Shown piece by piece: positions 4,801-32,133 of a stretch of DNA of 33,810 bases (positions are counted from its first letter, which is position 1; each line of letters begins with the position of its first letter). The translations under genes and the position numbers were made by a program. Source of the stretch: Neisseria sp. (lineage in GTDB: Bacteria > Pseudomonadota > Gammaproteobacteria > Burkholderiales > Neisseriaceae); assembly GCA_030538415.1 (NCBI GenBank), contig JAUNTY010000033.1:1-33810 (forward strand). The letters are read 5' to 3'. The notes beneath the pieces were generated by a model. The model was not told the DNA's origin. It saw only the letters and a list, made by a program, of their open reading frames with translations, and searched no databases.

Positions 4801-4870
4801 GTCATTCCCTAATGTATTGTTCTTACGAACCAACGGTTACGGCTGCGTATGGTTTTCAGACGGCCTGAAA

Positions 4871-4925
4871 TATAGTCAGGGAACAAGGCGGGCGAATGCC
4901 GTATCGTTCTTTAATCTACTGTATA
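4871..4925. repeat. Possible internally deleted Correia remnant
   Basis: This 55-bp stretch starts TATAGTCAGGGAACAAGGCG and ends TATA. ACAAGGCG and GCCGTATCG are Correia core words, but the ends pair poorly. It lies between two opposed DUS copies (about 4854-4865 and 4939-4949), upstream of hexR and downstream of glk. This is a weak call. Confidence 0.4.
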
Positions 4926-4991
4926 TTTCAGATTGAGAGGCCGTCTGAACGCTTGCAGCCTGAGAGTCTCCATATTCTCTGATTGCAGTAT

Positions 4992-5015
4992 GAAGCCCGG
5001 GCCTTCCCGGGCTTC
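4992..5015 (-). terminator. GC-rich hairpin after glk
   Basis: GAAGCCCGGG and CCCGGGCTTC form a perfect 10-bp stem around CCTT, five bases past the glk stop codon. No T-run follows on the minus strand, so it may pause transcription or protect mRNA rather than terminate fully. That would let transcription continue into hexR-pgi. Confidence 0.5.
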
Positions 5016-5019
5016 CCGG

Positions 5020-6057: not shown

Positions 6058-6736
6058 GGCAGTTTACCTTTTGCTGATTAATCACATAGCTGACGGGGAA
6101 AGTTTTGCTGAAACCTTTGGCGGCTTCGTCAAACACTTTTTTCTTTTCGTCGCCCTGAATCGCCAGAAACACGGCAGGCGTATTCAAAATCGCCGCCAGC
6201 GTCATGGAAATGCGCTCATGCGGCGCGGTCACCGGCGTGGTGTGCAGCAGCGGCACGTCATTGGCCAAATCCAGTCCTTTGTCGAGCTGCGGCGCCTGCG
6301 GAAACAGCGAAGCGGTGTGGCCGTCGCCGCCCATGCCGAGCACCAGCGCGTCGGGTTGGCGGAAATGCTTCAGCGCGCTTGCCACGGCGGCATCGGGCGC
6401 CAAATCGGCTTCGGCGGCGCCCTCTTCCACCATCGGAATCCAGCTTGCCGCCGCCGCCTTGTTTTGCAGCAGATGGTCGCGCACGAGGCCGGTGTTGCTG
6501 TCGGCATGCTCCAGCGGCACGATGCGCTCGTCTACCAGCGTGAGGCCGATGTTTGCCCAGTCCAAATCTTTTTGCGACAGGGCTTCGAAAAAGGCGATGG
6601 GCGAGCGGCCGCCGGACACGGCCAGCACGGCGCTGCCTTTTTTGTCCAATGCGGTTTGCAGCGCCGCGGCCACCGCATCGGCCAGCGCAGCCGCCGAATC
6701 GGCGGCATTTTCATGAAGATGCCATTGAAAGCTCAT
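6038..6736 (-). CDS. pgl: 6-phosphogluconolactonase
   Basis: Hydrolyses 6-phosphogluconolactone to 6-phosphogluconate, the step between Zwf and Edd. The 232 residues match the DevB/Pgl family length. [15 protein letters not shown] (residues 40-54) is the sugar-phosphate isomerase-like signature, [15 protein letters not shown] follows, and [15 protein letters not shown] carries the catalytic His. The start at 6736 has AGGAA seven bases upstream. The 3' end overlaps glk by 20 bases, showing tight operon organisation. The 101 bases to zwf contain an inverted DUS hairpin. Confidence 0.96.
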
Positions 6737-6765
6737 AATCGGTTCCTTGAAACAGTATTCTTTTT

Positions 6766-6813
6766 TTTCAGACGGCCTGAATCACTGTGATTCAGTTTAA
6801 AGGCCGTCTGAAA
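6766..6813. terminator. Inverted-DUS hairpin between zwf and pgl
   Basis: TTTCAGACGGCCT (6766-6778) and AGGCCGTCTGAAA (6801-6813) are inverted DUS copies. Between and overlapping them, CTGAATCAC and GTGATTCAG (6777-6795) form a second perfect hairpin. The two structures cannot fully form together. On the minus strand the stem is followed by A-residues rather than T-residues, so complete termination before pgl is doubtful. A partial block between zwf and the rest of the operon is possible. Confidence 0.55.
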
Positions 6814-6837
6814 GCATAGCGGTATCGCACCGGCTGT

Positions 6838-8301
6838 TTATTGCTCTTCGTGCCATCTGTCGCCGTTGCGCGCCAAAAGTTCTTGCGCGGCTTTCGGCCC
6901 CCAGCTGTCGGCAGCATATTCATAAGGCGGCATCGGCGAGCTTGCCCAGGTTTCCATAATCGGCATCACCCATTCCCATGCGGCTTCGAGCTCGTCGCGG
7001 CGGTTGAACAAAGCCAGTTTGCCGTTGATCACATCCAGCAGCAGGCGCTCGTAAGCTTCGGCGCGACGGCCTTCGATGGCCTTACCCATGTCTACGCTCA
7101 ATGCGGTGGTTTCGACGCAATTGCCTGCGCCGGGCGTTTTCACCTGGGTGTAGAGGCGGATGGATTCGGTGGGTTGCAGCTCGATGACCAGGCGGTTGGG
7201 TTCGGCGCTGCTGCAATCGTAAAGGTGGCTTTCCAGCTCGCGGAAATTCAACACGATTTCAGCCACTTTACCGGCCATGCGTTTGCCGGTGCGCAGGTAG
7301 AAAGGCACGCCCGCCCAGCGCTCGTTGTCGATTTCGGCCTTGATGGCTACATAGGTTTCGGTGTGGCTGTCGGCAGGCACATGCGATTCCTGCAGATAGC
7401 CGTTGAGCGCTTTGCCGTCTTTCTCACCGGCGCTGTATTGGCCGCGCACCACGTTCAGATCGACATCGCCCGGGGCAAACGGCTTGAGCGATTTGATGAC
7501 TTTCAGCTTCTCGTCGCGCACATCGTCGGCGCTGAGGCTGGCCGGTTTTTCCATGGCCGTCATGCACAGCATCTGCATCAGATGGTTTTGCACCATGTCG
7601 CGCAGCGCGCCGGTGATGTCGTAAAACTCGCCGCGCTCTTCCACGCCCAGTTGTTCGGCGATGGTCAGCTGCACGCTTTTCACGTATTTCCTGTTCCACA
7701 AAGGCTCGAACATCACGTTGGCGAAACGCAGCGCCAGCAGGTTTTGCAGCGCTTCCTTGCCCAGATAGTGGTCGATGCGGTAAATCTGCTCTTCTTTATA
7801 AAACGCGCCCACGGCGGCATTGATTTCCTGCGAAGAGGCAAGATCGGTGCCGAGCGGCTTTTCCAGCACCACGCGCACTTTGTCGTTATTGAGGCCGATG
7901 GCGGCGAGGTTTTCGCAAATCGGGGTGAAGAATTTCGGCGCGGTGGAAAGATACACCACCACATTATCGGTGTCTTTGCGGCCGTTGACGGCTTCACCCA
8001 GCGCGATAAAGCTTTCCGGCACGGTAGCGTCGACGGTCAGGTAATGGATGCGCTTGATGAAGGATTGCCACAACTCACCGCTATAATTGGTTTTCACGTG
8101 GATTTTGGAGTCGCTTGCCACTTTCTGCAAAAATTCTTCGGTAGAGAGCCGGCTGCGGCTCACGCCCAGAATGCGGCCTTCGGGATGCAGCAGCCCGGCT
8201 GCGTGCGCCTGATACAGGCAGGGCAGCAGCTTGCGCATGGCCAAATCGCCGGTAGCACCAAACAGCACCAAATCAAAATTTGTTTGCGTATTCATTTGCA
8301 T
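6838..8301 (-). CDS. zwf: Glucose-6-phosphate 1-dehydrogenase
   Basis: Oxidises glucose-6-phosphate to 6-phosphogluconolactone with NADP+ (or NAD+), the entry to the Entner-Doudoroff and oxidative pentose phosphate routes. Its 487 residues equal the normal bacterial length. It has the nucleotide-binding GATGDLA (residues 15-21), EKPLG (147-151) and the active-site signature RIDHYLGKE (175-183) with catalytic His178 and Lys182. Two ATGs at 8301 and 8295 are equally possible starts, as neither has a strong ribosome binding site. It is the first gene of the minus-strand operon and is divergent from edd across 378 bases, so the two sides can be controlled together. Confidence 0.97.
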   Translation of the reverse strand: MQMNTQTNFDLVLFGATGDLAMRKLLPCLYQAHAAGLLHPEGRILGVSRSRLSTEEFLQKVASDSKIHVKTNYSGELWQSFIKRIHYLTVDATVPESFIALGEAVNGRKDTDNVVVYLSTAPKFFTPICENLAAIGLNNDKVRVVLEKPLGTDLASSQEINAAVGAFYKEEQIYRIDHYLGKEALQNLLALRFANVMFEPLWNRKYVKSVQLTIAEQLGVEERGEFYDITGALRDMVQNHLMQMLCMTAMEKPASLSADDVRDEKLKVIKSLKPFAPGDVDLNVVRGQYSAGEKDGKALNGYLQESHVPADSHTETYVAIKAEIDNERWAGVPFYLRTGKRMAGKVAEIVLNFRELESHLYDCSSAEPNRLVIELQPTESIRLYTQVKTPGAGNCVETTALSVDMGKAIEGRRAEAYERLLLDVINGKLALFNRRDELEAAWEWVMPIMETWASSPMPPYEYAADSWGPKAAQELLARNGDRWHEEQ

Positions 8302-8540
8302 TGTCTTTCATCAAAGAAGGTTGTAATACGATGTAAAAATTCTTGCAGCCAATCAAATATGAGACTCTATTTTAATATAAGTTACAAATACTTAACCAAA
8401 AATTCCGTATAATCGAAAACAGCAATTGCAGCTCTTGCTAAATTAGTAGCAATCCTACACGGCACTACAGCTTTTGTCTATGTTGTTTTCCGTAAAATAT
8501 TTGACTTAGGTAAACACTCAGTCATTTTTCGGTGCTATGA

Positions 8541-8555
8541 TGTTACAAAATTACA
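8541..8555. promoter_or_regulatory. Candidate HexR operator 1
   Basis: TGTTACAAAATTACA agrees with 13 of 15 positions of the HexR consensus TGTARTWWWAYTACA, as I recall it for gamma- and beta-proteobacteria. It lies 47 bases upstream of operator 2, in the region shared by zwf and edd. A hexR gene is in the same locus. This is an inference from pattern only. Confidence 0.5.
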
Positions 8556-8586
8556 AAACAAACTTTGACCTGGTTCAAAAGTTGTA

Positions 8587-8617
8587 TTGTAACTAAACTA
8601 CAAATTTATATTATAAT
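8587..8617 (+). promoter_or_regulatory. Candidate sigma-70 promoter of edd
   Basis: The TATAAT at 8612-8617 is a perfect -10. The best -35 is TTGTAA (8587-8592) with a long 19-base spacer, within the HexR-like site. Transcription would start near 8624, giving a leader of about 55 bases that includes a DUS. Confidence 0.55.
8588..8602. promoter_or_regulatory. Candidate HexR operator 2, overlapping edd -35 region
   Basis: TGTAACTAAACTACA agrees with 14 of 15 positions of the HexR consensus. It ends nine bases before the TATAAT at 8612-8617, so bound repressor would cover the -35 region of the edd promoter. That fits repression relieved by KDPG. Confidence 0.65.
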
Positions 8618-8679
8618 TCGACAAAAGATGCCGTTCAGACGGCCTCCGTTTACATAGAGCCAGAAAGGCAGAACAACAC

Positions 8680-10512
8680 ATGAGCACCCCACTCCACCCC
8701 ACCCTCGCCGCCATCACCCAGCGCATTATCGAACGCAGCAAAACCACCCGCGCCGCTTATCTCGCGCACATCCGTGCCGCCCGCCACCAAGGCCGCCTCG
8801 AGCGCAGCCAGCTCGGTTGCACCAATCTTGCCCACGCATTTGCCGCCGCGCCCAGCGCCATCAAAATCGAGCTGAAACAGGAAAAAACCCCCAATTTCGG
8901 CATCGTGTCGGCCTATAACGACATGGTTTCCGCCCATCAGCCGCTGCAAGATTTCCCCGCCTGGATTAAAGAGGAAGCCTTCCGACACGGCGCCACCGTG
9001 CAATTTGCCGGCGGCACCCCCGCCATGTGCGACGGCATCACCCAAGGCTACGAAGGCATGGAATTGTCGCTGTTTTCGCGCGACGTGATTGCCATGAGCA
9101 CCGCCGTGGCCCTGTCGCACCAAATGTTTGACGCTGCTTTTTACTTGGGCGTGTGCGACAAAATCGTACCGGGCTTATTAATCGGCGCGTTGAGTTTCGG
9201 CCACCTGCCCGCCCTGTTTGTGCCCGCAGGCCCGATGACCAGCGGCATCGCCAACGATGAAAAAGCCAAAACCCGCCAGCTGTTTGCCGAAGGCAAAGTC
9301 GGCCGCGATGCCCTGCTCGAAAGCGAAATGGGCTCATACCACAGCCCCGGCACCTGCACCTTCTATGGCACCGCCAATTCCAACCAGATGATGATGGAAA
9401 TGATGGGGCTGCACATGCCCAACACCGCCTTCGTCAATCCGAATACGCCGATGCGCGAAGCGCTCACCCGCGCCGCCGGTGCGCATCTGGCGCAAGCCGT
9501 GAAAAACGACGCCATTTTGCCGGTGGGCGAAATGATTACCGAAAAATCCATCGTCAACGCCATTGTCGGCCTGATGGCCACAGGCGGCTCCACCAACCAC
9601 ACCATGCACGTGGTCGCCTTTGCCCGCGCCGCCGGCATTATCGTGAATTGGGACGATTTCGACGAAATCTCCGCCATTATCCCGCTGCTGACCCGCGTTT
9701 ACCCCAACGGCAAAGCCGATGTGAACCATTTCGCCGCAGCGGGCGGCCTCGCATTCGTGATTCGCGAACTGCTCGACGCCGGCCTGATGCATGAAGACGT
9801 CGACACCGTGGTCGGCCACGGCATGCGCGCCTACACCAAAGAGCCCTTCATGCTCGACGGCAAACTCGAATGGCGCGACGCCGTAGCCGTAAGCAACGAT
9901 GAAAACGTGGTGCGCCCCGCCAGCAACCCATTCTCTGCCGACGGCGGTTTGCGCCTGATGAAAGGCAACATCGGCCGCAGCGTCATCAAAGTATCCGCCG
10001 TCACGCCCGACCACCGCGTCATCGAAGCGCCCGCCATCGTGTTTGACGACCAGCGCGACGTGTTGGCCGCCTTCGACCGCGGCGAGCTGGAGCGCGACTT
10101 CATCGCCGTGGTACGCTTCCAGGGCCCGCGTGCCAACGGCATGCCCGAATTGCACAAACTCACGCCGCAATTGAGCATCCTGCAAGGCCGCGGCTTCAAA
10201 GTAGCGCTGGTCACCGACGGCCGCATGTCAGGCGCATCGGGCAAAGTGCCCGCCGCCATCCACATGAGCCCGGAAGCCCTGCTCGGCGGCGCCATCGGCA
10301 AAATCCGCACCGGCGACATGTTGCGCTTCGATGCCGACAAGGGCGAACTCAACGTATTGGTGGACGAAGCCGAATTCAACGCCCGAGAAATCCCCGTGCC
10401 CGATTTGAGCGCCCACACCCACGGCGTCGGCCGCGAATTGTTTGCAGGCTTCCGCAGCCTCTCCAGCAGCGCCGAAACCGGTGCCATGAGCTTCGGCGGC
10501 GACTTCGCCTAA
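8680..10512 (+). CDS. edd: 6-phosphogluconate dehydratase
   Basis: Dehydrates 6-phosphogluconate to 2-keto-3-deoxy-6-phosphogluconate (KDPG), the committing step of the Entner-Doudoroff pathway. It has 610 residues, normal for the IlvD/Edd family of iron-sulfur dehydratases. The cluster-binding cysteines are in [10 protein letters not shown] (Cys117), [13 protein letters not shown] (Cys159) and [14 protein letters not shown] (Cys226). The C-terminal signature [20 protein letters not shown] is also present. The choice of Edd over dihydroxyacid dehydratase rests on [17 protein letters not shown] and on the neighbouring eda, zwf and pgl. AAAGG precedes the start by about 10 bases. It is followed by a DUS hairpin and then eda 113 bases on. 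Confidence 0.97.
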
Positions 10513-10516
10513 ACCT

Positions 10517-10545
10517 TTCAGACGGCCTTCCAAAGGCCGTCTGAA
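10517..10545 (+). terminator. Inverted-DUS hairpin between edd and eda
   Basis: TTCAGACGGCCTT (10517-10529) and AAGGCCGTCTGAA (10533-10545) form a perfect 13-bp stem with the three-base loop CCA, five bases past the edd stop. A short T-rich stretch follows. A further DUS at about 10568-10580 precedes eda. eda therefore either depends on read-through or has its own promoter. Confidence 0.7.
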
Positions 10546-10625
10546 CGTTTGACCTGACTTAAAACTTTTTCAGACGGCCTCTTGTATGATGCTGTCACCC
10601 CTTTTCACAAACCCGGAGAATCCAC

Positions 10626-11243
10626 ATGACCCCACGCGAAATCCTCACCGCCGGTAAAGTAGTGCCGGTAATCGCCATCGACGACCTTGCCACCGCCGTA
10701 GATTTGGCCAACGCCCTGGTAGAAGGCGGCATCCCCACCCTCGAAATCACCCTGCGCACGCCCGCCGGTATCGAAGCCATCCGCCAAATCAAAAAAGAAG
10801 TGCCTGGCGCCATCGTCGGCGCGGGCACCGTGACCAACGGCGAGCAGCTCAAAGCCGTGGAAGACGCAGGCGCCGTGTTCGCCATCAGCCCGGGCTTCAA
10901 CATCAACTTTGCCAAAGCCGCCGAAAAAAGCAGCATCGCCGTGATTCCCGGCATCGCCACACCGGGCGAGCTGATGCTGGCACTGGAGCACGGCATCGAC
11001 ACCATGAAACTCTTCCCCGCCGAAGTGGTGGGCGGCAAAGCCATGCTCAAAGCCCTCTACGGCCCGTTTGCCGACGTGCGCTTCTGCCCCACCGGCGGCA
11101 TCAGCCTCGAAACCGCCCCCGAATATCTGGCGCTGCCCAACGTATTGTGCGTCGGCGGCTCATGGCTCACCCCGAAAGAAGCCGTGAAAAACCAGGACTG
11201 GGCAACCATCACCCGTCTTGCCAAAGAAGCTTCCGCGCTGTAA
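10626..11243 (+). CDS. eda: KHG/KDPG aldolase
   Basis: Cleaves KDPG to pyruvate and glyceraldehyde-3-phosphate, the last step of the Entner-Doudoroff route. The 205 residues are a TIM-barrel class I aldolase. PTLEITLRTP (residues 37-46) carries the catalytic Glu40, VGAGTV (64-69) binds phosphate, and MKLFPAEVVGG (127-137) carries the Schiff-base Lys128. These are offset by five residues from Glu45/Lys133 of the enteric enzyme. A good ribosome binding site (CGGAGAA) lies about eight bases upstream. It is followed by an inverted DUS terminator. Confidence 0.97.
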   Translation: MTPREILTAGKVVPVIAIDDLATAVDLANALVEGGIPTLEITLRTPAGIEAIRQIKKEVPGAIVGAGTVTNGEQLKAVEDAGAVFAISPGFNINFAKAAEKSSIAVIPGIATPGELMLALEHGIDTMKLFPAEVVGGKAMLKALYGPFADVRFCPTGGISLETAPEYLALPNVLCVGGSWLTPKEAVKNQDWATITRLAKEASAL

Positions 11244-13823: not shown

Positions 13824-15614
13824 TCAGATGCCGCTGCCTTGCGCTTTCAGTTTTTCCGTGCCGAACTCCAGCTTGCTGAGCGCCGACAGATAAGCTTTGG
13901 CGGTGGCCACCAATACATCGGTATCGGCGCCCTGCCCGTTGACCACGCGGCTGCCGCGCGCCAGGCGCACTGAAGTTTCGCCCTGGCTTTCGGTGCCCTC
14001 GGTGACGGCGTTCACCGAATAAATCTGCAAAGTCGCGCCGCTGGCGGCCACGCTCTCAATCGCTTTGAAAATCGCATCCACGGGGCCTGAGCCGTTGGCG
14101 GTGGCGCGGTGTTCCTGGCCGCCGACGCTGAACACCACCTCGGCCACGGGCTGTTCGCCGGTTTCGGTGGTGATTTTCTGCGAGAGGAATTTATAGTGGT
14201 CTTGCGACAGATTCACCATCTCGTCAGACACCAGCGCGTGCAGGTCTTCATCGAAGATTTCGCGTTTCTTGTCGGCCAGCTCCTTGAAGCGGGCAAACGC
14301 GGCGTTGAGCGCTTCTTCGCTTTCCAATTGGATACCCAAATCGGCGAGCTTGGTTTTGAAGGCGTTGCGGCCGGACAATTTGCCGAGGCTCAGGCGGTTG
14401 GCCGCCCAGCCGACGGATTCGGCCGACATGATTTCGTAGGTTTCGCGGTGTTTCAACACGCCGTCCTGATGAATGCCGGATTCGTGGGCAAAGGCATTTG
14501 CGCCGACAATCGCTTTGTTCGGCTGCACCGGATAGCCGGTGACGGTCGACACCAGTTTGGAGCTCGGCACGATTTGGGTGGTGTCGACGCCGGTTTCAAG
14601 GCCGAACACGTCATGGCGGGTTTTGAAGGTCATCACGATTTCTTCGAGGCTGGCATTGCCTGCGCGCTCGCCCAAGCCGTTGATGGTGCATTCCACCTGA
14701 CGCGCGCCGCCCAATACCGCAGCCAGCGAGTTGGCCACGGCCAGACCCAAATCATTATGGCAATGCGCCGACCACACCACTTTGTCGCCGCCTGGCGTCT
14801 TGGCAATCAGCTCGCGGAAAAAGGCTTCGGTACGGTGCGGCACGGAATAGCCGACGGTATCGGGAATATTGATGGTGGTGGCGCCCGCCTCAATCACCGC
14901 GCCGCAGATTTCGGCCAGAAAATTGATTTCCGAGCGCAGCGCGTCTTCGCAGGAAAATTCCACGTCGTCGGTGTATTCCTTGGCGATTTTCACCGCTTTC
15001 ACCGCCGCTTCCACCACTTGTTTGGGCTTCATTTTCAGCTTGTGCTCCATGTGGATGGGGCTGGTGGCGATAAAGGTATGGATGCGGCGCTTCGCGGCGG
15101 GGGCAACGGCTTCGCCGGCGGCGCGGATGTCGCGCTCCACGGCGCGGCTGAGCGAGCACACGGTGGCGGTGGTGAGGCTTTTGGCAATCTCGTTGACTGC
15201 TTCGAAATCGCCGGGGCTGGCGGCGGCAAAACCGGCTTCAATCACATCAACGCCCAGCTTTTCCAGCTGACGGGCAATGCGGATTTTTTCCTCTTTGGTC
15301 ATGGCGGCGCCGGGCGATTGCTCGCCATCGCGCAAGGTGGTGTCGAAAATGATGACGCGTTTGTCTTTTGGCATGGTGGTTTTCTCCAGAGATTTTTGTT
15401 GCTGTAAAAACGCATTCAAATCCAGCGGCCGCCCCTGCGCTTCGGCCAGCGCGGTCAGCTTTTGCAGCTGGTTGAGCGGCAGCGAGCCGCGCGTGCGCCA
15501 TTTGTAGATGGCCGCCGTGCTGGCTGCGTTGTGCGGGTCTTGCTGTTTCAAGGCTTCGGCCAGAGCGTTAACGCCGCCGAAATAGGCGATTAAGCGGTCG
15601 ATGTCCAGTTGCAT
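13824..15614 (-). CDS. leuA: 2-isopropylmalate synthase with N-terminal HTH extension
   Basis: Condenses acetyl-CoA with 2-ketoisovalerate, the first step of leucine synthesis. The enzyme part is [15 protein letters not shown] (catalytic/metal site), [13 protein letters not shown] with metal-binding histidines, and [13 protein letters not shown]. The C-terminal LeuA regulatory domain for leucine feedback lies at about the last 130 residues. The canonical protein would start at Met81 (15374; [11 protein letters not shown]), giving 516 residues, the normal length, with GGAGA eight bases upstream. The frame stays open without a stop for 80 further codons to 15614, where AGGGG precedes another ATG. 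Those residues resemble a Cro-like DNA-binding domain. Translation from 15614 must therefore give a 596-residue fusion, and both forms may be made. The assignment as LeuA is firm; the in vivo start is not. Confidence 0.93.
15375..15614 (-). other. Cro-like helix-turn-helix domain fused in frame to LeuA
   Basis: Residues 1-80 of the long leuA frame. [18 protein letters not shown] followed by [20 protein letters not shown] and [18 protein letters not shown] has the layout of small phage-type Cro regulators (helix, turn, recognition helix with a YKW core, then a terminal strand). No stop codon separates it from the LeuA start. It may be a leftover regulator gene whose stop was lost, or a real regulatory extension. 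Confidence 0.6.
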
Positions 15615-19752: not shown

Positions 19753-22227
19753 TCAATGCCCTTCGGGCGGCAGCTCTTCCAGTGTCAGCGGCTTGATGTG
19801 CCAGATATTTTCGGCATAGTCGGCAATCGAGCGGTCGGACGAGAAATAACCCATATTGGCGATGTTAATCAGCGCCGAACGATACCAGTTGCGCTTGTCG
19901 CGGTAGTATTCGTCAACCCGGTTTTGGGTGTCGACATAGCTGCGGAAGTCGGCCATCACCTGATAGTAGTCGCCGTAAGACTGCGACACATCGACATAGC
20001 GGCTCGGCTCTTCCGGCGAGAAGGCTCCTGTGACGACTTGTTTGGCCACCGTGCGCAAATCGTGGTCTTTCTCAAGATAATCGAGCGGGTCATAGCCTTC
20101 GCGGCGCAAGGCTTCCACCTGTTCGACGGTATTGCCGAAAATGAAAATATGCTCGTCACCCACTTTTTCGAGAATTTCCACGTTGGCACCGTCAAGCGTG
20201 CCGATGGTGAGCGCGCCGTTAAGGGCGAATTTCATGTTGCCGGTGCCCGAGGCTTCGGTGCCCGCCAGCGAAATCTGCTCCGACAAGTCGGCGGCCGGGA
20301 TGATGATTTGGGCAAGGCTGACGCTGTAGTTGGGAATAAACACCACTTTGATTAAGTCGCGGATGCGGCTGTCGTTGTTGACGACTTTGGCCACGTCGTT
20401 AATCAGGCGGATGATTTTTTTGGCCACATAATAAGACGATGCCGCCTTGCCTGCGAAGATGAATACGCGCGGCTGCCAGTCTTGCTCGGGATTGGCCAGA
20501 ATGCGGTTGTAGCGGTCGATGATGTGCATCACGTTCATCGCCTGGCGCTTGTATTCGTGGATGCGCTTGATTTGCACGTCGAACAAGGCATCGGTGTTGA
20601 CGGTGATGCCCAGCTCTTTTTCGATATAGTCGGCCAGGCGCTGTTTGTTGGCGCGCTTCACTTCGGCGAATTCGGCCTGCACGGCTTCATCGTCGACCAG
20701 CTTGTTGAGCTCGGTGATTTTTTCCAGGTGCATGCGCCATTGGTTGGTGCCGAGGTGTTTGTCGAGAAAGCCGGTGAGCGGGCGGTTGGCCACGGCAATC
20801 CAGCGGCGCGGGGTCACGCCGTTGGTGACGTTGGTAAAGCGGCTCGGATACAGTTTGGCAAAATCGGCAAAAATCGACGTGGTCATCAACTCGGAATGGA
20901 TTTTGGCCACACCGTTGACTTTGTGTGAGCCGACCACCGCCAGCCAGGCCATGCGCACGCGGCGGCCGTTGCTTTCGTCGATAATCGACACGCGGCGGAT
21001 GAAATCGTCGTCAAACGCGCCGGTTTCGCGAACGGCTTCGAGGAAATGCTTGTTGATGCAGAAAATGATGTCGAGATGGCGCGGCAGCAGGCGGCCCATC
21101 AGGTCGACCGGCCAGGTTTCCAGCGCTTCGCTCATCAAGGTATGGTTGGTGTAGGAGAATACTTTGCAGCAGGTATCCCACGCCTTGCGCCATGCCCAGC
21201 CTTCTTCGTCAATCAAGAGGCGCATCAGCTCGGGAATCGCCAGCACCGGATGGGTATCGTTGAGGTGGATGGCCACTTCGTCGGCCAGCGTGTCGAGGCT
21301 GGGGAAACGGCATTTGTGACGGGCGATAATGTCCTGAATCGAAGCGGACACCAGGAAATATTCCTGCTTCAGGCGCAGCTCGCGGCCGCTTTCGGTGGAG
21401 TCGTTGGGATAGAGCACGCGCGAGACGTTTTCATCGCTGGTCTGGCCGCGCATGGCGGAGAAGTAATCGCCCCGGTTGAAATCATTCAAATCAAACAGAT
21501 AGCCTGCGTGCGCCGTCCACAAACGCAACGGGTTGGCCACTTCGCCGCCATAGCCGGGGATGATTTCGTCGAAGCCCAGCGCGGTGATTTTTTCGGCCGG
21601 CTCCCAGCTGTGCACATCGCCTTCGACACGCAGCTGGCCGCCGAAAGAAACGGGGTAATGCTTGTTGGGGCGTGGGAACTGCCAAGCCATGTCTTTGTCG
21701 AGCCACAGGTCGGGTTTTTCCACCTGCTGGCCGTCGATGATTTCCTGTTTGAACATGCCGTATTGGTAGCGGATGCCGTAGCCCATGGCCGGGATGCGCA
21801 AAGTGGCGAGCGAATCGAGGAAACAGGCCGCCAGACGTCCCAAACCGCCGTTACCGAGGCCGGGATCTTCTTCTTCGCCGACAACGGTGTCGAAATCCAG
21901 CTCCAGCTGTTTGAACGCTTCTTTAAACGAGTCGTATACGCCTTCGCTGATTAACGAATTGGTGAACGCGCGCCCCAGCAGGAATTCCATGGAAAGGTAA
22001 TACACCATGCGTTTTTTGTGGTCGATGTGGCTGCGGCGGGTGCGCAGGAAGCTCTCGGTCACCAGGTCGCGGGCGGTAAACATGGCGGCATTGAGCCAAT
22101 GCTCGGGCTTGGCGTCTTTCGGATCCACACCGAGGGTGAAAATCAGCTTGAAGACAATGGATTGGCGGATACGGTCGGCATCCGTGGTCGGCATGCGGTA
22201 TTCATATTCGGGGAGTCTGGGAGCCAT
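19753..22227 (-). CDS. glgP: Glycogen/maltodextrin phosphorylase
   Basis: Releases glucose-1-phosphate from the non-reducing ends of alpha-1,4-glucan. The 824-residue product is of normal length (about 800-830). The pyridoxal-phosphate site [19 protein letters not shown] has its Schiff-base Lys at residue 666, close to Lys662 of E. coli Glg[16 protein letters not shown] and the glucan-binding [16 protein letters not shown] are also present. Glycogen versus maltodextrin preference cannot be told by eye, but the glg operon context favours glycogen. It is the last gene of the operon and is preceded by an intrinsic terminator behind glgA, so its expression probably depends on read-through or on its own promoter in the 202-base gap. 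AGGA lies six bases ahead of the start. Confidence 0.96.
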
Positions 22228-22429: not shown

Positions 22430-23869
22430 TTACAGATTACCGTAACAGGCGTCATAACTTTCGGCCGCCTTGTGCCAGCCAAAATCCTGCATCATCGCCT
22501 GTTTGCGCACCGCAGGCCACATGCGCGGTTTCTGCCATACCGCCAGCGCCTGTGCCAATGTATCGGCCAGCGCCTGCGCCGACGGTTCGTCAAACACGAA
22601 GCCGGTGGCGGTTTTGTCTTTCAGCGTTGCCGCATCGGTGTGCACCACCGTGTCGGCCAGCCCGCCGGTGCGGCGCACAATCGGCAGCGTGCCGTATTTG
22701 AGGCCGTAAAGCTGGGTGAGGCCGCAGGGCTCGAAGCGGCTGGGAATCAGGATGGCGTCGCCGCCCGCAATCAGGCCGTGCGCCAGTTGCTCGTCGTAGC
22801 CGATATGCACGCCCACTTTATCGGGGTAAGCGGCGGCCAAATCACGAAACGCCTGCTCCAGCTCGGGCGCGCCGCTGCCCAACAGTGCAAACTGCAAATC
22901 GGCACCTTCGGCAAGTTTTTCCTGCAAGGCGCCCAGTAGCAAATCGGCGCCTTTTTGCGGGGTCAGGCGCGATACCATTACCAGCAGCAAGGGTTCGCCA
23001 TCCTGCGGCAGGCCGAAATATTCCTGCACGGCTTTTTTGTCGGCTTTTTTGCCCTGCATGGCTTTGAGGTGGTAGTTTTTCACCAACACCGCATCGGTTT
23101 GCGGATTCCACACCGCATCGTCGACGCCGTTCAAAATGCCGTTCAGACGGCCTTCTTCCAGGCGGCTTTGCAACAAGCCCTGCAAACCGCAGGCAGCAGG
23201 CTCGCGGGTGATTTCATCGGCATAGGAGGGGCTGACGGTGGTGACGCAGTCGGCATAATACAGGCCGCTCTTCAAAAACGACATCTGACCCTGAAATTCC
23301 AGCCCTTCCACGTCATACATATACCACGGCAAATCCAGCTCGGCCAAATGGCGCGACTGAAACATGCCCTGATAGGCGATATTGTGGATGGTGAACACGC
23401 TTTTCACCTCCGAGCCCCAAGCATGCAGATAGGCCGGCGCCAAACCCGCCTGCCAGTCGTGCGCATGCAGGACATCAGGCTTGCCCCATACTTCGTCAAG
23501 GCCGGTGGCGATGGCTGCGGCCGCCCAGCCGAGGATGCCGAAACGGATAACGTTGTCGGCATAATCCCGATAATCCGCATCATGATAAGGATTGCCTTCG
23601 CGATCGAACAAATGCGGCGCATCAATCAGATAAAGCCCCAGGCCGTTATAGTCGGCATAACGGATAACGATATGGCCGCCAAAATTGTCGCGCACGGCCA
23701 CTTCCGCCGCATCGGGCAGGGCTTCGCGCACTTTCGGATAATACGGCAACACCACGCGCACGTCATCGCCGCGCTGCAATTGCGCAAACGGCAGCGCGCC
23801 CAACACGTCGGCCAGGCCGCCGGTTTTCAACAACGGAAAAATTTCCGAAGCTGCATGCAAAATTTTCAT
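22430..23869 (-). CDS. glgA: Glycogen synthase (ADP-glucose type)
   Basis: Transfers glucose from ADP-glucose to the growing alpha-1,4-glucan. It is a GT5 retaining glycosyltransferase of 479 residues, matching the 477 of the E. coli enzyme. The N-terminal motif KTGGLADV (Lys15) binds ADP-glucose, and the C-terminal domain has RFEPCGLTQLYGLKYGTLP with the conserved catalytic-site Glu. The start at 23869 (MKILHAASEI) has GGAG about eight bases upstream. A longer frame from 23932 adds 21 residues without family support. It is separated from glgC by 275 bases that carry a repeat element, so it may have its own promoter. Confidence 0.97.
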   Translation of the reverse strand: MKILHAASEIFPLLKTGGLADVLGALPFAQLQRGDDVRVVLPYYPKVREALPDAAEVAVRDNFGGHIVIRYADYNGLGLYLIDAPHLFDREGNPYHDADYRDYADNVIRFGILGWAAAAIATGLDEVWGKPDVLHAHDWQAGLAPAYLHAWGSEVKSVFTIHNIAYQGMFQSRHLAELDLPWYMYDVEGLEFQGQMSFLKSGLYYADCVTTVSPSYADEITREPAACGLQGLLQSRLEEGRLNGILNGVDDAVWNPQTDAVLVKNYHLKAMQGKKADKKAVQEYFGLPQDGEPLLLVMVSRLTPQKGADLLLGALQEKLAEGADLQFALLGSGAPELEQAFRDLAAAYPDKVGVHIGYDEQLAHGLIAGGDAILIPSRFEPCGLTQLYGLKYGTLPIVRRTGGLADTVVHTDAATLKDKTATGFVFDEPSAQALADTLAQALAVWQKPRMWPAVRKQAMMQDFGWHKAAESYDACYGNL

Positions 23870-24049
23870 GGTAATCTCCTGATTTGAGAAATCTTCGGCA
23901 TAACCCGGATGCCGGGCATCAAACGATATCATGCAATATGCAGAGAAAATGCCGCCGTTTGTTATGCAAGGATTCTTTATTTAAGATAAATGATAAAGCT
24001 GTATTGTTATATTGTTGTTTCAGACGGCCTTTTCTTTTCCGGCATGCCC

Positions 24050-24144: not shown

Positions 24145-25515
24145 TTACTCGGGCTGCCCTGCTGTTGCTTCCTGCTGCGGTTGTCTGGCTGCCTCTTCCT
24201 GCTCTTGCTTGTCTTGCAGCATGGCTTCAACCATGGCGCGGGTCACCAATACCACGCTGCCGCCGGAGCTGATGCGGAAATATTTGGCGTCTGCTGCCGG
24301 ATTGAGGCCGATTTCGGTGCCGTCGGGAATCACACAGGTGCGGTCGATGATGCAGTTTTTCAGACGGCAGTTTTTGCCGATTTGCACGCTCGGCAACACC
24401 ACGCAGGAATCAATCACGCTGTTTTCTTCCACCGTCACATGGTCAAACAACACCGACGAACGGATTTCGGCATCGGTGATGATGCAGCCGCCGTTGACCA
24501 GCGAATTGTCCAAACCGCGCCCTTGCCGGTTGTTTTTATAGAAAAACTTGGTCGGCATGGCCTGCGTGGGCAAGCCGCGCACCGGCCAGCTTTGGTCAAA
24601 CAGGTTGAGCTGCGGATGCTCGGTGACCAAATCCATGTGGGTGCGCCAATAGCTGTCGAGCGTGCCGACGTCGCGCCAGTAGATGCTGCCCTCGGCGTTG
24701 CGCCCCATGCACGAGCGCTCGAACGGATGCGCATACAACACGCCCTCTTCCAGCGCGCGCGGCAGAATGTCTTTGCCGAAATCGTGGTGGGTTTCGGCTT
24801 TGGCCACTTCGGTTTCCAATGTTTCATACAGGTAATCGGCGTCGAATACGTAGATGCCCATCGAGGCCAATGATGAATCGGGTTTTTCGCGCATGCTCGG
24901 CGGATTGCTCGGTTTCTCGACAAACTCCTGCACTTTCAGCTTCTCGTTCACCGCCATGATGCCGAACTGGTCGGCTTCGCTGCGTTTCACTTCGATGCAG
25001 CCCACCGTGCACTTGGCGCCGCTGCTGACGTGGTCGCGCAGCATCTGCATATAGTTCATCTTGTAGATGTGGTCGCCCGCCAGAATCAGCACGTATTTGG
25101 GTTTGTAGTGCTCCTGCATGATGTGCACGTTTTGCCACACTGCGTCGGCGGTACCGCGATACCACATGCTTTCGTCCACCTGCTGGCGTGCGGGCAGCAT
25201 GTCGACAAACTGGCCGCGGTCGCGCGGCAGGAAAGACCAGGCGTGTTGCAGGTGGCGCAGCAGCGAGTGGGCTTCATACTGGGTGAGCACGCCGATTTTT
25301 TTCAGGTTGGAATTGAGGCAATTGGACAGGGTAAAATCGATAATGCGCCAGTTGCCGCCGAAATACACTGCGGGCTTGGAGCGCCGGTCAGTCATCTCGT
25401 GCAGGCGCGAGCCGCGGCCGCCTGCCAGAATCAACACCAGCGTGTTTTCGGCGATGTCGAGGGAATGCAGGGCGGGTTTGTTATCGTCTGTCATTAAAGT
25501 ATCTTCATGTCTCAT
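24145..25515 (-). CDS. glgC: Glucose-1-phosphate adenylyltransferase (ADP-glucose pyrophosphorylase)
   Basis: Makes ADP-glucose from ATP and glucose-1-phosphate, the controlled step of glycogen synthesis. The nucleotide-binding LILAGGRGSRL lies near residue 26, followed by KPAVYFGGNWRIIDFTLSNC and the sugar-phosphate site VEKPSNPPS. A C-terminal left-handed beta-helix repeat region follows. The C-terminal tail is unusually rich in Gln, Glu and Ala. The start at 25515 (MRHEDTL) is chosen because its ATG overlaps the glgX stop as TAATG and AGGAG lies about 10 bases upstream. MTDDNKP at 25494 is an alternative. With the 25515 start the protein has 456 residues. A frame open to 25683 lies inside glgX and is not expected to be translated. 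Confidence 0.96.
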   Translation of the reverse strand: MRHEDTLMTDDNKPALHSLDIAENTLVLILAGGRGSRLHEMTDRRSKPAVYFGGNWRIIDFTLSNCLNSNLKKIGVLTQYEAHSLLRHLQHAWSFLPRDRGQFVDMLPARQQVDESMWYRGTADAVWQNVHIMQEHYKPKYVLILAGDHIYKMNYMQMLRDHVSSGAKCTVGCIEVKRSEADQFGIMAVNEKLKVQEFVEKPSNPPSMREKPDSSLASMGIYVFDADYLYETLETEVAKAETHHDFGKDILPRALEEGVLYAHPFERSCMGRNAEGSIYWRDVGTLDSYWRTHMDLVTEHPQLNLFDQSWPVRGLPTQAMPTKFFYKNNRQGRGLDNSLVNGGCIITDAEIRSSVLFDHVTVEENSVIDSCVVLPSVQIGKNCRLKNCIIDRTCVIPDGTEIGLNPAADAKYFRISSGGSVVLVTRAMVEAMLQDKQEQEEAARQPQQEATAGQPE

Positions 25516-27503
25516 TACTGAAGTTCTCCTTGTTTGTGAAATAACCAGATGCCCATATGCTCCACCAGGCATCCGTCGGTCGCGTGCCGGTAACGCTCTG
25601 AGGGCGCCAAACGGCATGCCCAACCGGCTTGAGGTAAATCGAATGATTGCGGGCCGCGCTTTCCATTCACCAACAGCAGCCACTCATCATCCAATACAAT
25701 CTGCATGGCTTTGATTTCATTGTTGTGCCATGCCGCTTCGGTCATCGGTGCGCCTTCGGTATCCAGCCAGCGCACCCGACCATCCCACCACACGTCTTCG
25801 CCGATAAGCGGGATTTCACGGCGCAATGCCGCTAATTCTCTGACATATTCTTTCAGACGGCCATCTTGTTTGTCCCATGAGAGCCAGGTGATTTTATTGT
25901 CCTGGCAATAGCCGTTGTTGTTGCCTTGCTGACTGTTGCCGAATTCGTCGCCCGCCAGCAGCATCGGAATGCCGTTGGCGAGAAACAGGCTGGCCAGCAG
26001 CGCCTTGGCGGTGTATTCGCGCGCTTCGAGCACGGCTTCATCTTCGGTTTCGCCCTCGAATCCGTGGTTGTCGCTGATGTTGTCGTTGTGGCCGTCGCGG
26101 TTGTCTTCGCCGTTGGCTTCGTTGTGTTTGCCGTTGTAACTCACCAAATCATGCAGGGTGAAGCCGTCGTGGGCGGTGATGAAATTGACGCTGGCCGAAG
26201 GATTGCGGCCGTCGTGGCAAAACAGGTCGGCAGAGCCTGCAAAGCGCTCGGCAAACGCGCCGAGTTTGCCGCTCTGGTGCACCCAAAATTCGCGCATGTC
26301 GTCGCGGAAGCGGTCGTTCCATTCGGAAAACGGCTGGGCAAACCTGCCCACCTGATAGCCGCCCAAACCGATGTCCCACGGCTCGGCAATCAGCTTGCGG
26401 TCGGCCAGCAGCGGGTCTTGGTAACAAGCCTGGAAAAAGCGCCCGTAAGCATCGAAAGCCGGTTCGCGCCCGAGCATGGTGGCCAAATCGAAACGGAAGC
26501 CGTCGATGTGGAATGTTTCCGCCCAGTAGCGCAGGCTGTCCATCACCCAGCGGGTGACGCTGCGGTGGCCGACGTGCAGCGTGTTGCCGCAGCCCGACCA
26601 GTTTTCATAATTGCCGTCCTGGTTCACCCAATACCAGGCGGCGTTGTCGATGCCGCGCTGGCACAGCATCGGCCCGCCTTCGTCCTGCTCGGCGGTGTGG
26701 TTGTAAACCACGTCCAGTATCACTTCGATGCCCGCCGCATGCAGCGCCTTCACCGCTGCGCGCAATTCGTCGGCGGCTTGCTCCGGCTCGGCGGCATAGC
26801 CCGGCTCGACGGCAAAATGCGACCAGGTGTTGTAGCCCCAATAATTGCTCAGCCCCATCGCCTGCAAATGCTGCTCGTCGAGATGCTGATGCACGGGCAA
26901 AAGCTCGACGGCGGTGATGCCCAAGTCTTTCAGATGGCCGATGACGCGCTCGTCAGCCAGCGCGCGGTAAGTGCCCGCATGCGCCAGGTCGGGAAAAAGC
27001 TTGGTCAGCCCTTTCACATGCGCTTCGTAAACCACGGTTTGCGCAATCGGCGTTTGCGGCAGCCTGTCGTCGCCCCAGTCGAATTCAGACGACCCCACCA
27101 CCACGCTTTTGGCAGCCACGGCGGCGTTGTCTCTATCGTCTTCGGCGCGAAACCACGCCAACTCCTCCCCATTCGCATACACCGGTTTGCCGTCGATGGC
27201 TTTCGAATAAGGGTCAATCAACAGCTTGTCGGGGTTGAAATACAGCCCCTCCTCCGGCAAATCATGGCCGTGCACGCGGTAACCGTAGCGTTGACCCGCG
27301 CCGACATCCGCCACGAATCCATGGCGCACATGACCGCTGCGCCCCGGCAGCGGCAGGCGGGTTTCCCCGCCGTCGCCGTCAAACAGACACAACTCAATCT
27401 TGTCGGCACGCGACGAGAAAATGGCAAAATTCACGCCGCCGTCGCGCACATGCGCGCCCATCGGGTAAGGCAGGCCGTCTGAAAGCTGCGGCGCATCAGT
27501 CAT
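25515..27503 (-). CDS. glgX: Glycogen debranching enzyme (isoamylase type)
   Basis: Hydrolyses alpha-1,6 branches of phosphorylase-limit dextrin. The 662-residue GH13 protein has an N-terminal CBM48 domain ([20 protein letters not shown]) and a barrel with conserved region [11 protein letters not shown]. The nucleophile region is [15 protein letters not shown] (Asp339), the acid/base region LIAEPWDIG and the stabiliser region [12 protein letters not shown]. Asp339 matches Asp336 of E. coli GlgX. The start at 27503 overlaps the end of the malQ::glgB gene by 8 bases, and its stop overlaps the glgC ATG, so three genes are translationally linked. Confidence 0.96.
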
Positions 27504-30500
27504 GGCGGGCTTCCCGATACAGATACAACGTCGCCAGCGGCGGAATGGTCAGCGACAGCGATTGCGCTTTGCCGTGCGAATCAATATTCTCGGTTTGCAA
27601 AGTATCGCCAATGTTTACGCCGCTGCCTTGATAATCGAGGCCGTCTGAATTCAGAATCACCCGGTATCCGCCCGCCTGATTCACGCCGAAGCGGTAGTGT
27701 TCGCGCACCACCGGCGTGAAATTGCTGATGACGATGACCGAATTACCGTCGCGGTCGCGCCGTTCAAACACGAATACCGAGCTGGCCACATCGTCCACCA
27801 CCAGCCATTCGAAGCCTTCCGGCCATTGGTCGAGCTGATACAGCGGTGTGTGGCTGCGGTAGGTATGGTTCAAATCGCGCACAAAGCTTTGCACGCCTTT
27901 GTGCCAGCCGCCGTGGCTTTCGTCGAGCAGAAACCAGTCGAGCGGCTGGTCGTAATTCCACTCGCGCCCTTGGGCAAATTCGTTGCCCATAAACAGCAGT
28001 TTCTTGCCGGGGAAGCCATACATAAAACCGTAATAAGCGCGCAGGTTGGCGAATTTCTGCCAGCAGTCGCCCGGCATGCGGTCGAGCAGCGATTTTTTGC
28101 CGTGCACCACTTCATCGTGCGACAGCGGCAACACGAAGTTTTCGCTGTATTGGTACATCATTGCAAATGTCATCAGGTTGTGGTGGTATTTGCGGTTGAT
28201 GGGATCTTCCTGCATATAGCGCAGGGTGTCGTTCATCCAGCCCATATTCCATTTATATTGGAAATTCAACCCTTCGGCGCGGGTGACGTTGGCAAACGAG
28301 GTCGATTCTTCGGCGATTTCGGTGGCTCCCGCCGCTTCCTGCTGCAACATGGTGTTGGTGTCGCGCAGAAAATTGATGGCTTCGAGGTTTTCGCGGCCGC
28401 CGTATTGGTTGGGAATCCATTGCCCTTCATCCCGCGAATAGTCGCGGTAAATCATCGAGGCCACCGCATCGACACGGATGCCGTCGAAACCGAAGCGCTC
28501 AATCCAATACAACGCGTTGCCTTGCAGGAAGTTTTTCACTTCGGTGCGGCCGAAGTTGTAAATCAGCGTGTTCCAGTCTTGATGGTAGCCTTCGCGCGGG
28601 TCGGCATGTTCATACAGCGGCGTGCCGTCGAAATGATTGAGGCCGTGGTCGTCGACCGGAAAATGGCCGACCACCCAGTCGAGAATCACGCTTATGCCCG
28701 CCTCATGAGCCGTCTGAAGCAGATATTGCAATTGTTGCGGCGAGCCGAAGCGGCTGGTGGGCGAATAAAGACCGGTGGCCTGATAGCCCCAGGAGCCGTC
28801 AAACGGATATTCCGAAATCGGCAGCAATTCGATGTGGGTGAAGCCCATGTCTTTCACATAATCCACGAGCTCGTGCGCCAGCTCTTCATACGTGAGCCAG
28901 AAGCCGTTTTCGAGATTGCGCCGCCACGAGCCCAGATGCACTTCGTAGATGCTGATGGGGCTGTCGATGGCGTTGGCTTGGGCGCGGTGCGCGGGCGCGG
29001 GCACTTTTTCGGGCAGGCCGCGCACCACCGAAGCCGTGGTCGGGCGCAGCTCCGAAGCAAAGGCATAAGGGTCGGATTTTTGGCGGACGTTACCGTTGGC
29101 ATCGCGGATTTCGAATTTGTAGAGCGCGTTGAACGGCACATCGGGAACAAAGATTTCCCACACGCCGATGTCGCGGTGAAAACGCATCACATGGCGGCGG
29201 CCGTCCCAGCCGTTGAATTCGCCGATAACCGACACCCGCGCCGCATTCGGCGCCCACACCGCAAAATGTACGCCTTTCGCGCCGTCGTGTTCCACCAAGT
29301 GCGCACCGAGGGTTTCATACGGCCTCAGGTGTTTGCCCTCGCCCAACAGCCAACTGTCGAGCGATTGCAGGCAGGAATCGAAACGGTAGGGGTCTTCGAT
29401 GCGGGAGGCCGTCTGAACGCCGGGATAAGTCACACTGAGCGCATAATCGGGCGAACCTTCGGGCAACACCGCCACAAAAAAGCCGCGTTCGTCAATTTTC
29501 TGCATCGGTGCTATCAATCCGCCACCTTCGCACGCCACCACATCAACGCTGCGGGCATCGGGCAGCAGGCAGCGTACCACGTCGCCCACGCCCTCCAGCC
29601 GGTGCCGCCCCAGATAGGCAAACACATTGCCGTGTGTGGCGTAAAACAGGCTGTCGATGGTATCGCGCTCTTGCTGGTCGGGCGCGGGATAAGGAATCTG
29701 CTTGCTGTTTTTTCTCATTTCGACCTCGTAAATCATCTGTAAATGCGCTTCCATTCTGGCTTGCTGAGGGAAGTCTTCTAGTTTCACCGGCAGCTTGACC
29801 GACCAGTTGGGATAACCGTCGGCCACACCCGGCACGTTGAAATTGACGCTCATGGCCAGCAGGTTTTCAATCTGCACGCCGTAAAGCCTGCTGCTGCATT
29901 CGGCACCGAAGCGGTGCAACGCAAACAAAATACTGTCGCTCAAATTGGCAGGTAGCGGCTCGTCATGCGGCAGCAGCCCTGCGTTTTTCAGCGCCTGCAA
30001 CAAGATTTCCTTGTCGTATTGGCGCTGGGTTTGCGCGGCCAAGAGCGCGGTGTCATCGGCATACACGCCCAAATCGCGCATCGTGGTCAAGTCGCTGCCT
30101 GACCAAAATCCGGCCATCGGCGGCAAATCGTGGGTGCTGGTGACCGTAATCGCCTGCTCGGGGTAATCGGCGGGCGCATTGAAACTGTCTGCGCCACGGT
30201 TGAAATACAACACCGAATACGAAAGGATGCGGTAGCGGTTGAGCAACTCGCGCATGCCGTCGGGCACGATGCCCAAATCTTCGCCGATGATGATGCAGCG
30301 CCTTTGCTGGCTCTCCAGCACGGCAACCGCCATCAGAATTTCCTGCGGATAGCGCACATAAGCACCGTTGTCGGCATTTTCACCCGACACCACCCACCAC
30401 AGGCGGCTGAACGACATCACATGGTCAATCCGCAAGGCGCCGTAAAGCTTCATGTTTTCGCGCAGGATTTTAATAAACTCGCGGCAGCCGCTGCGCAACA

Positions 30501-31779
30501 ACGCGCCCGGATGCAGCGGCGGCAGCTGCCAGTTTTGCCCCGCCGGGCTGAATTGGTCGGGCGGCGCGCCCACTGACACATCCAGGCAATACACGTCTTG
30601 CGCGAGCCAGATATCCGCGCCGCCGCGCGCCACGCCCACCGACAAATCGCCGTAGAGGCCGATTGCCATGCCGCTTTCACTCACGCGCCGGTTGACGGCT
30701 TCCAGCTGGGTGGCGCACAACCATTGCAACCACATGTAAAAGCGCACCTCTGCCGTATGAGCCGCCGCAAACTGCTTTACCGCCTCGTTTTCAGGCCGCC
30801 GGTATTCAGACGGCCAGCCCGGCCAACCCAAAATTTCAGGGTCGGCAAAATGCCGGTCGATGGTTTCAAACAAGGCATAGCCGTGCAGGCCTTCGCCTTT
30901 TTCGGCCACAAAAGCATCAAATGCCCGCCGCTGCCGCGCCCATTCTTCGCCCTCACCGGTTTCAAAAGCAGCAAAGGCCGTCTGAAGCGCGGCTAGTTTC
31001 AACGCCCACACGCCATCATAGTCTACCGTTTCGCATTCACGCAGGGCTGCAATCTGCTGCTGCACTTCCGCCGATACCAACCATTGCTGCGCGGCGACGG
31101 AAGCCTGAAAAGCGGCCACAGCAGTAATGTCCAGGTAAACCGGATTCAGCCACACGCGCGAAGACGGGCTGTAGGGGCTGGCATAAGCAGGCCGCGCGCC
31201 AAACAGCGCATGCAGCGGATTGATGCCGATAAAATCCAGATGGCGCGCGGCGGCATAATCCACCAAAGCGGCCAAATCGGTAAAATCGCCTATGCCCCAG
31301 TTGTTTGCCGAGCGCAGGCTGTAGAGTTGGATGGTAAGGCCGTTGAGGCGGCGGTTATCCGCCAGCGCCTGAGGCTCGTAAGCCTCGCCGGGCGCGGCAA
31401 TCAACAGGCAACGCCCCGTCTGCCCGCCTTGATAAAAAGCCGACAAATCGTGATAGCCTGCAGGCAGGGGCGGCAGCGTGACCGCAATGCCACCCTCGCG
31501 GCATTGCCAGTCCACATCCGGGCAAGTGCCGTCTTCCAGCGTCAGCTTCAGCGCATCAACCTGCGGCGGCGCTTTTTCCCACACAACATCCGCCTGCCCG
31601 TCAACCGGCACAATCCTGATTTCATCCACCGGATTTTCCGCCGCGCCCGTTTTGCCCAAGCAATCGACCAAAGCTTCAAGCACCACAGGAGAAATCTCAC
31701 GATACATGCCGTTAAAATCCAGATAGCCGGTGTTCACGCCCAGCCCGGCAGCTCGCTTTAACAGGTCATCGTTATTCAT
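27496..31779 (-). CDS. malQ-glgB: Fused 4-alpha-glucanotransferase and 1,4-alpha-glucan branching enzyme
   Basis: One uninterrupted frame of 1427 codons. Residues 1 to about 690 are a GH77 amylomaltase (MalQ): [15 protein letters not shown], nucleophile in [13 protein letters not shown] (Asp452), acid/base in [13 protein letters not shown], and third Asp in [13 protein letters not shown]. From about residue 700 to the end it is a full GH13 branching enzyme (GlgB): CBM48 region, [33 protein letters not shown] (nucleophile Asp1104), [10 protein letters not shown] and [21 protein letters not shown]. All catalytic residues appear intact in both halves, and each half has the length of the stand-alone enzyme (about 694 and 728 in E. 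coli). GGAGAG stands four bases before the start at 31779. An internal ATG at 29718 (Met688, MRKNSKQI) has GAGG five bases upstream and could give a free 740-residue GlgB. It is the first gene of the glycogen operon. Confidence 0.95.
29716..29730 (-). promoter_or_regulatory. Possible internal ribosome binding site and start for GlgB
   Basis: On the minus strand GAGG is followed by TCGAA and an in-frame ATG at 29718 (Met688), 10-20 codons before the branching-enzyme part begins ([19 protein letters not shown]). It would produce a 740-residue GlgB. It may be an old start site kept after fusion of malQ and glgB. Confidence 0.4.
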
Positions 31780-32133
31780 TTTCTCTCCGTGTTTTGCAAG
31801 CCTGAATCGGTAAACTTGCCAATCGAATATTCATACTAATATAAAAATACATTTTTGTCTGTATGCACAATCAGACCCAAATCAAATAATCCTCATTTAA
31901 TCAGAATCTTTACGTTTGTGCTTATGTAAAACAAATGCCGCATGCCGAATGATGCTCAAGCCGTCATTATATCGTCATAAAGCTTGATTTTCATCCGCGA
32001 TTATGATGCCTTGATGCAAGGCAGGCCAAAGCAACGCTGTATCGTTCTGTGTTATTTGACTATACTTAAACTACTGTCTGCAATCTGCCGCCCTGCATCA
32101 AAATATCCCGCCTGCCGCCGAAAACCTGCCATC
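31780..32133. other. Divergent region between malQ-glgB and ushA
   Basis: These 354 bases hold the malQ-glgB leader and an AT-rich stretch (31830-31930) likely to contain its promoter. Then comes a degenerate Correia-like segment (about 32003-32105) directly before the ushA start. No small gene is convincing, and I could not choose a -35/-10 pair with confidence. Confidence 0.6.
32003..32105. repeat. Degenerate Correia-like remnant upstream of ushA
   Basis: GATGCAAGGCAGGCCAAAGC and CAACGCTGTATC match, in reverse complement, the left arm of the element at 11329. ACTACTGTCTGCAATCTGCC matches its right arm. Terminal TATA ends are lost or changed, so this is a decayed copy; boundaries are approximate. 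Confidence 0.45.

Follow-up and report, generated by a model that had tools for sequence, protein, structure and literature searches.

A malQ::glgB fusion has already been reported for a Neisseria species (Chem Rev 2024, PMC11046441), named N. suica in the text of that review and N. sicca in the legend, with MalQ placed before GlgB. The passages of the review that deal with this fusion mention neither an internal start, nor a wider distribution, nor an origin. For Pasteurellaceae, a passage of a 2007 paper describes candidate malQ-glgBXCAP operons (PMC1805755). Here we analysed a stretch of 33,810 nucleotides from Neisseria sp. (hereafter, the window), which carries a fused gene of the N. sicca kind, with an N-terminal MalQ and a C-terminal branching enzyme in a Neisseria glycogen locus, and which has the gene order given in that passage for Pasteurellaceae. 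In contrast to the N. sicca fusion as the review passages present it, the one in the window has glgC and glgA beside it, and we did not find any amylosucrase match in the window's own genome. The earlier note on this DNA had presented the joined gene as a departure from the norm of separate malQ and glgB genes; the fusion holds, but in view of the passages cited it is not unprecedented.

The fusion in the window is real. The open reading frame listing and the translation give one uninterrupted minus-strand frame with an ATG start (Table 1), and, as had been proposed from the DNA alone, it joins MalQ and GlgB with catalytic residues in both: the two modules are intact and all six residues are present. 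Pfam domains were matched along the whole protein (GH77 at residues 150-664, GlgB_N at 705-798, CBM48 at 824-906, alpha-amylase at 972-1040 and Alpha-amylase_C at 1325-1422), and the MalQ N-terminal domain PF21226 scored slightly below its cut-off (20.7 bits; cut-off 24.1). The MalQ half passed the curated cut-offs of PF02446 (417 bits; cut-off 25) and TIGR00217 (546; 206), and remained below that of the narrower MalQ model PRK11052 (698; 806). The GlgB half passed the equivalog cut-offs of TIGR01515 (929 bits; 464), PRK05402 (942.5; 741) and PRK12313 (827; 577), and was under the cut-offs of NF009221, NF011293 and NF011294. The nearest solved structures were 4s3p for MalQ and 1m7x for GlgB, which we take to be E. 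coli enzymes.

Table 1. Features of the fusion gene and of the neighbouring glycogen genes (window coordinates).
Feature	Position	Strand	Remarks
malQ::glgB fusion gene	27496..31779	-	1427 aa, frame read 31779..27496; ORF, profile matches and relatives' frames
MalQ (GH77) module	29716..31779	-	residues 1 to ~688; triad D452, E500, D551
GlgB module	27499..29718	-	residues 688-1427: GlgB_N, CBM48, GH13, C-terminal domain; triad D1104, E1158, D1222
Candidate internal start codon ATG (Met688)	29716..29718	-	predicted free GlgB of 740 aa
GAGG, Shine-Dalgarno-like core	29724..29727	-	ends five bases before the internal ATG; overlaps the Glu685 codon
Promoter-like site	31966..31994	-	10 of 12; upstream of the fusion start
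glgX (debranching)	25515..27503	-	overlaps the end of the fusion gene; profile matches
glgC (ADP-glucose synthesis)	24145..25683	-	mechanical GTG ORF too long; family match begins at residue 73
glgA (glycogen synthase)	22430..23932	-	profile matches
glgP (glycogen phosphorylase)	19753..22227	-	profile matches

The MalQ triad, aligned to 4s3p, is kept in 27 of 27 fused rows of the alignment. D1104 and D1222 of GlgB are likewise found in all 27, and E1158 in 25, with Asp in the remaining two (L019 and L020); the catalytic roles of these six positions are those that we presume from general knowledge of the two enzymes. The GlgB parts of L019, L020 and L113 carry Asp (AEDST) for the acid/base Glu that is residue 1158 in the window, and branching may be impaired in these three.

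The fusion gene is followed by glgX-glgC-glgA-glgP, all on the minus strand. In the window's own assembly (106 contigs, 96% complete) we did not find a second malQ or glgB, the only other match being glgX, with 30% identity. Our scan for promoter-like sites gave three sites in total, against 2.8 in shuffled sequences. An internal glgB promoter was considered and rejected: there is no minus-strand promoter-like site near 29718, and the scan yields no more sites than the shuffles. The motif GCCGTCTGAA occurs 43 times in the window against 0.07 expected, in 33 of the 43 copies as AGGCCGTCTGAA, a Neisseria DNA-uptake dialect. Five of the 43 copies sit within the fusion gene. Near the glycogen cluster, pgi, glucokinase, zwf, an edd-like dehydratase and KDPG aldolase are grouped at 2276-11243, and the two groups together form a putative Entner-Doudoroff and storage neighbourhood. 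Further along, LeuA (13824-15614, minus strand) has an N-terminal carph-isopro domain (NF046037, 73 bits; cut-off 38).

The search for the fused architecture in Neisseriaceae and Pasteurellaceae, which had been suggested as a check, found it in both families, in 25 of 83 and 4 of 121 genomes, respectively. In Neisseriaceae, the host family, 29 of the 83 genomes gave a match (the window's own included), the 25 being those with one open frame across both modules; 11 of the 25 are single-contig genomes. The four matching but unfused genomes have split frames (G050), separate genes (G038), GlgB alone (G066) and a malQ remnant (G044). G050 (locus L113) could be read as a natural frameshift that forces internal initiation; we dropped this reading because glgX and glgP of the same assembly are split as well as malQ. 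At 7480-8690 of L116 (G044), what is left of malQ is its 5' end, with a remnant of glgP immediately after it, and the remaining glycogen cluster is absent from the stretch. G066 (L114) has glgB, glgC, glgA and glgP, with no glgX in the stretch read and no GH77 match in the genome; its GlgB is therefore independent of a joined MalQ.

Among Pasteurellaceae, 110 of the 121 sampled genomes matched. The four fused without a stop are all four genomes of one genus, and 23 further genomes had matches that span both modules and carry one or two stops. Ten of the 12 Cardiobacteriaceae genomes matched, nine of them fused without a stop and one (L141, genome G747) with a single TGA in an otherwise fused frame; L140, of the same genus, has no such TGA. 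In broader samples, those spanning both modules among the best-scoring matches listed for 300 genomes of the order were all from the window's genus, and the matches listed for 369 genomes of the class included one further genome of this kind (G521, Cardiobacteriaceae). A scan of contigs of relatives identified two fused genes among the best 80 of 590 (L028 and L029, both Cardiobacteriaceae). A match was present in 1079 plasmid records, in 33 of which the bulk of the query aligned at a single place; the 20 that were listed include no record annotated as a single fused gene. We also observed long frames (1326-1849 aa from stop to stop) whose C-terminal end is GlgB, in L051, L055, L070, L086 and L105, and one of 1497 aa ending in MalQ, in L060; perhaps these are other alpha-glucan enzyme fusions.

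In both phylogenies the fused genes form a single clade. A single branch divides the fused rows from the separate Pasteurellaceae pairs and from other bacteria in the GlgB tree (34 rows; bootstrap/SH-aLRT 100/99) and in the MalQ tree (30 rows; 100/98); the placement of the long branches L028 and L029 is unsure. Larger quick trees of GlgB and MalQ give the separate Pasteurellaceae pairs as the sister group of the fused rows. Independent fusions in each family are not supported, since the fused rows stay together in both trees. Two GlgB-only genes are nested in the fused GlgB clade: L114, whose sister is a fused gene (100/100), and L030, from Ursidibacter, which groups with the fused L140 and L141 (98/96). 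The L030 genome has a MalQ elsewhere, from another clade. The separate pair of G038 (L115) clusters with the separate Pasteurellaceae pairs for both genes, and was therefore probably acquired from a Pasteurellaceae-type source. The malQ stop is separated from the glgB ATG by 3-11 codons in each of the 11 same-frame Pasteurellaceae pairs that we looked at (L148-L158); in another pair, L031, the two genes are in different frames. Loss of the stop codon between neighbouring malQ and glgB genes would be the simplest origin of the fusion, and one such event, with the fused gene then passing between families and its joined MalQ being lost twice at a later time, would explain the trees. The median log divergence ratio of MalQ to GlgB was 2.21 in fused Neisseriaceae rows, against 1.83 for the separate pairs and 1.70 for the remaining fused genes; from these medians it is not clear that fusion speeds MalQ divergence.

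The second proposal of the earlier note was that an in-frame ATG at 29718, with GAGG five bases upstream, could give a free GlgB besides the fused protein. The site is as described, just before the GlgB module; the ATG is codon 688, and lies 17 residues before the GlgB_N match. Met688 is present in 25 of 25 fused Neisseriaceae rows, as the sole invariant column of a variable 33-residue linker (671-703); it is also found in L028 of Cardiobacteriaceae, and is absent in L029. Glu stands at position 685 in 20 of the 25 Neisseriaceae rows, and 19 of these encode it as GAG, which is the less used of the two Glu codons in every one of the 26 scored genes (8-37%). Column 685 ranks first for GAG among 52 conserved Glu columns (the next has 76%). 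Three rows (L015, L017 and L018) have Gly instead of Glu685, yet keep GGAG at equal spacing.

Several comparisons set this site apart within the gene. Column 688 has the most favourable mean Shine-Dalgarno (SD) energy of the 16 conserved Met columns, and the third weakest mRNA structure. The mRNA at Met688 is less structured than 84-99% of windows of the same gene (15 genes), and more open than the mean synonymous recoding in 14 of the 15 (equal in L109). Pooled over lineages of our own grouping, which share history and are only partly independent, so that the values are optimistic, the SD rank relative to the remaining ATG and GTG codons in frame within each gene gave p = 2.9e-4 (11 lineages; 7.4e-4 with g414, the lineage lacking the start, counted as a miss), a purely synonymous SD test gave a modest p = 0.013 (0.026 with g414 as a miss), and openness against synonymous recodings gave p = 7.9e-4 (7 lineages). 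With 20 random control sites per gene, none was as good in seven genes, and 30-55% were as good in L013, L007 and L109. The fused genes of Cardiobacteriaceae and Pasteurellaceae went in the same direction in 9 of 9 cases (p from 0.007 to 0.35). In 23 of 26 rows the internal SD was stronger than that of any N-terminal start with a score (the exceptions being L005, L028 and L109); N-terminal starts less than 20 bases from the beginning of the frame were unscorable. Synonymous conservation was high just upstream of Met688, the 9-codon windows from 676 and 677 ranking 8th and 9th of 1379, with no comparable elevation downstream of it.

Outside the host family, the genus g412 of Cardiobacteriaceae (L135-L137) has a linker without Met and a GTG just before the GlgB module, with AGGAGG, GGAGG and AGGAGG, respectively, seven bases upstream (SD energies -14.1, -9.5 and -10.2); these sites came to notice after a search for Met, and so do not count as predicted in advance. 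In L142, GAGGAGG precedes the ATG (-12.7). The two GlgB-only relatives inside the fused clade start at about the same point: the free GlgB of L030 begins at AAGGAGAGCAA-ATG, and that of L114 begins MPTLSYPTP, at about the Met688 position, with a poor SD (-2.7). There are also exceptions: the start is missing from L029/L143, the SDs of L004, L109 and L144 are weak, and in L028/L138, L109 and L145 the SD is not above synonymous chance (p 0.75-0.86). Overall, the start codon and its SD appear to be conserved beyond the needs of the protein, with these exceptions. The codon, SD and openness comparisons thus speak for the proposed pair of products, and the rows without a start or with a weak SD speak against it; we consider it likely that the locus makes both the fusion and a free GlgB of about 740 aa.

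The sequence record itself gives little room for doubt about the frame. That it is a sequencing or assembly artefact has a negligible probability: nothing in the window points to it, the one relative with a split frame (L113) comes from a noisy-looking assembly in which malQ, glgX and glgP are all broken, and the 25 fused frames of the family, 11 of them in single-contig genomes, stand against it together with an independent published mention. The products leave more to weigh. The 1427-aa fusion could be the sole product, the Met688 region being kept because it closes the final helix of MalQ, or persisting as a fading trace of the old glgB start. An AlphaFold model of residues 140-930 (17 sequences, pLDDT 79, pTM 0.72) has a helix at 674-691, of fair confidence, at the end of MalQ, followed by a short linker (692-701) before GlgB, and since this predicted helix contains Met688, packing might account for its conservation. 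Positions 685-687 and 691 show fair conservation too (20-24 of 25), and the absence of the start in L029/L143 fits as well. However, the hydrophobic helix positions 676, 682, 683 and 686 swap among M, I, L and V and 688 does not; the choice of Glu codon and the low mRNA structure are not properties of the protein; and in g412 the start is a GTG behind a strong SD, within a different peptide. We therefore regard a single product as unlikely.

A further alternative, compatible with dual products, is that the stop was lost neutrally, the halves working independently and without channelling, and that the fusion persists since reversal is hard or the stoichiometry tolerable. Members of the GlgB clade that do without a joined MalQ are in line with this, namely L114, from a genome lacking GH77, and L030, whose genome has a MalQ of another clade elsewhere, as is the separate pair of Pasteurellaceae type in G038. 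On the other hand, 25 of 83 genomes of the family retain the fusion across wide divergence, every fused row still has the whole MalQ triad, and the fusion is retained with either glucan source, so that we give neutral persistence somewhat less than an even chance.

Our best explanation, which we hold to be probable from the comparative evidence, is a single stop-loss fusion with the start kept by selection and two proteins made from one mRNA. The stop codon would have been lost between operon neighbours that shared a frame and were separated by a few codons, leaving the ancestral glgB ribosome-binding site and start within the joined frame, and selection would keep both in most lineages. One mRNA would then give a bifunctional 1427-aa MalQ-GlgB and a free GlgB from Met688, and the internal start would let the cell produce GlgB in excess over MalQ, as with separate genes. 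By rearranging short maltodextrins, MalQ forms longer chains, and long chains are what GlgB requires for branching. In the fusion, MalQ may extend short maltodextrins, for instance the products remaining after GlgX and GlgP action, to a length that GlgB can branch, and a channelling of maltodextrins by the joined enzyme is plausible. The 25 fused Neisseriaceae genomes have a match to GlgC (7), to amylosucrase (14) or to both (4, with two stops in one of the GlgC matches); none is therefore without a glucan-making route, and the fusion would serve either glucan source.

Gene fusion is usually seen as locking two enzymes together. If our explanation is true, the long-kept buried start reflects selection for both the joint and the free enzyme, and fusion did not fix the GlgB and MalQ activities at one to one. 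The balance of glycogen branching in these bacteria also becomes testable, with the separate same-frame pairs, the GTG version and the two GlgB-only relatives as natural controls for the question of the buried start. It seems reasonably probable, if with a little more reserve, that this is a bifunctional enzyme that keeps the start of its second gene under selection in three families, with the GlgB:MalQ ratio set by translation and with both tethered and free GlgB. We did not find, among titles and beginnings of abstracts in the open-licence literature, any work on an internal start of a fusion of the malQ::glgB type, and "branching enzyme" and "internal start codon" gave no match together in open-licence PMC literature.

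Among known architectures, the GlgX-MalQ fusion (NCBIfam PRK14510) also joins MalQ to an alpha-glucan enzyme, but to another partner; the window protein matched this model in part and below its cut-off (453.8 of 2511 bits), and so it did PRK14507, a malto-oligosyltrehalose synthase model whose N-terminal part matches MalQ (668.1 of 2148 bits). The malQ and glgB genes of Pasteurellaceae resemble the window more closely, as the two are often in frame with each other and only a few codons separate them, glgB having an SD and an ATG; they differ from it in the stop codon between the genes. As for the start itself, E. coli clpB, cheA and infB each have a conserved, SD-led, in-frame internal start that gives a shorter product without the N-terminal part. 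In the window, by contrast, the predicted short product would be a complete second enzyme, formerly encoded by a gene of its own.
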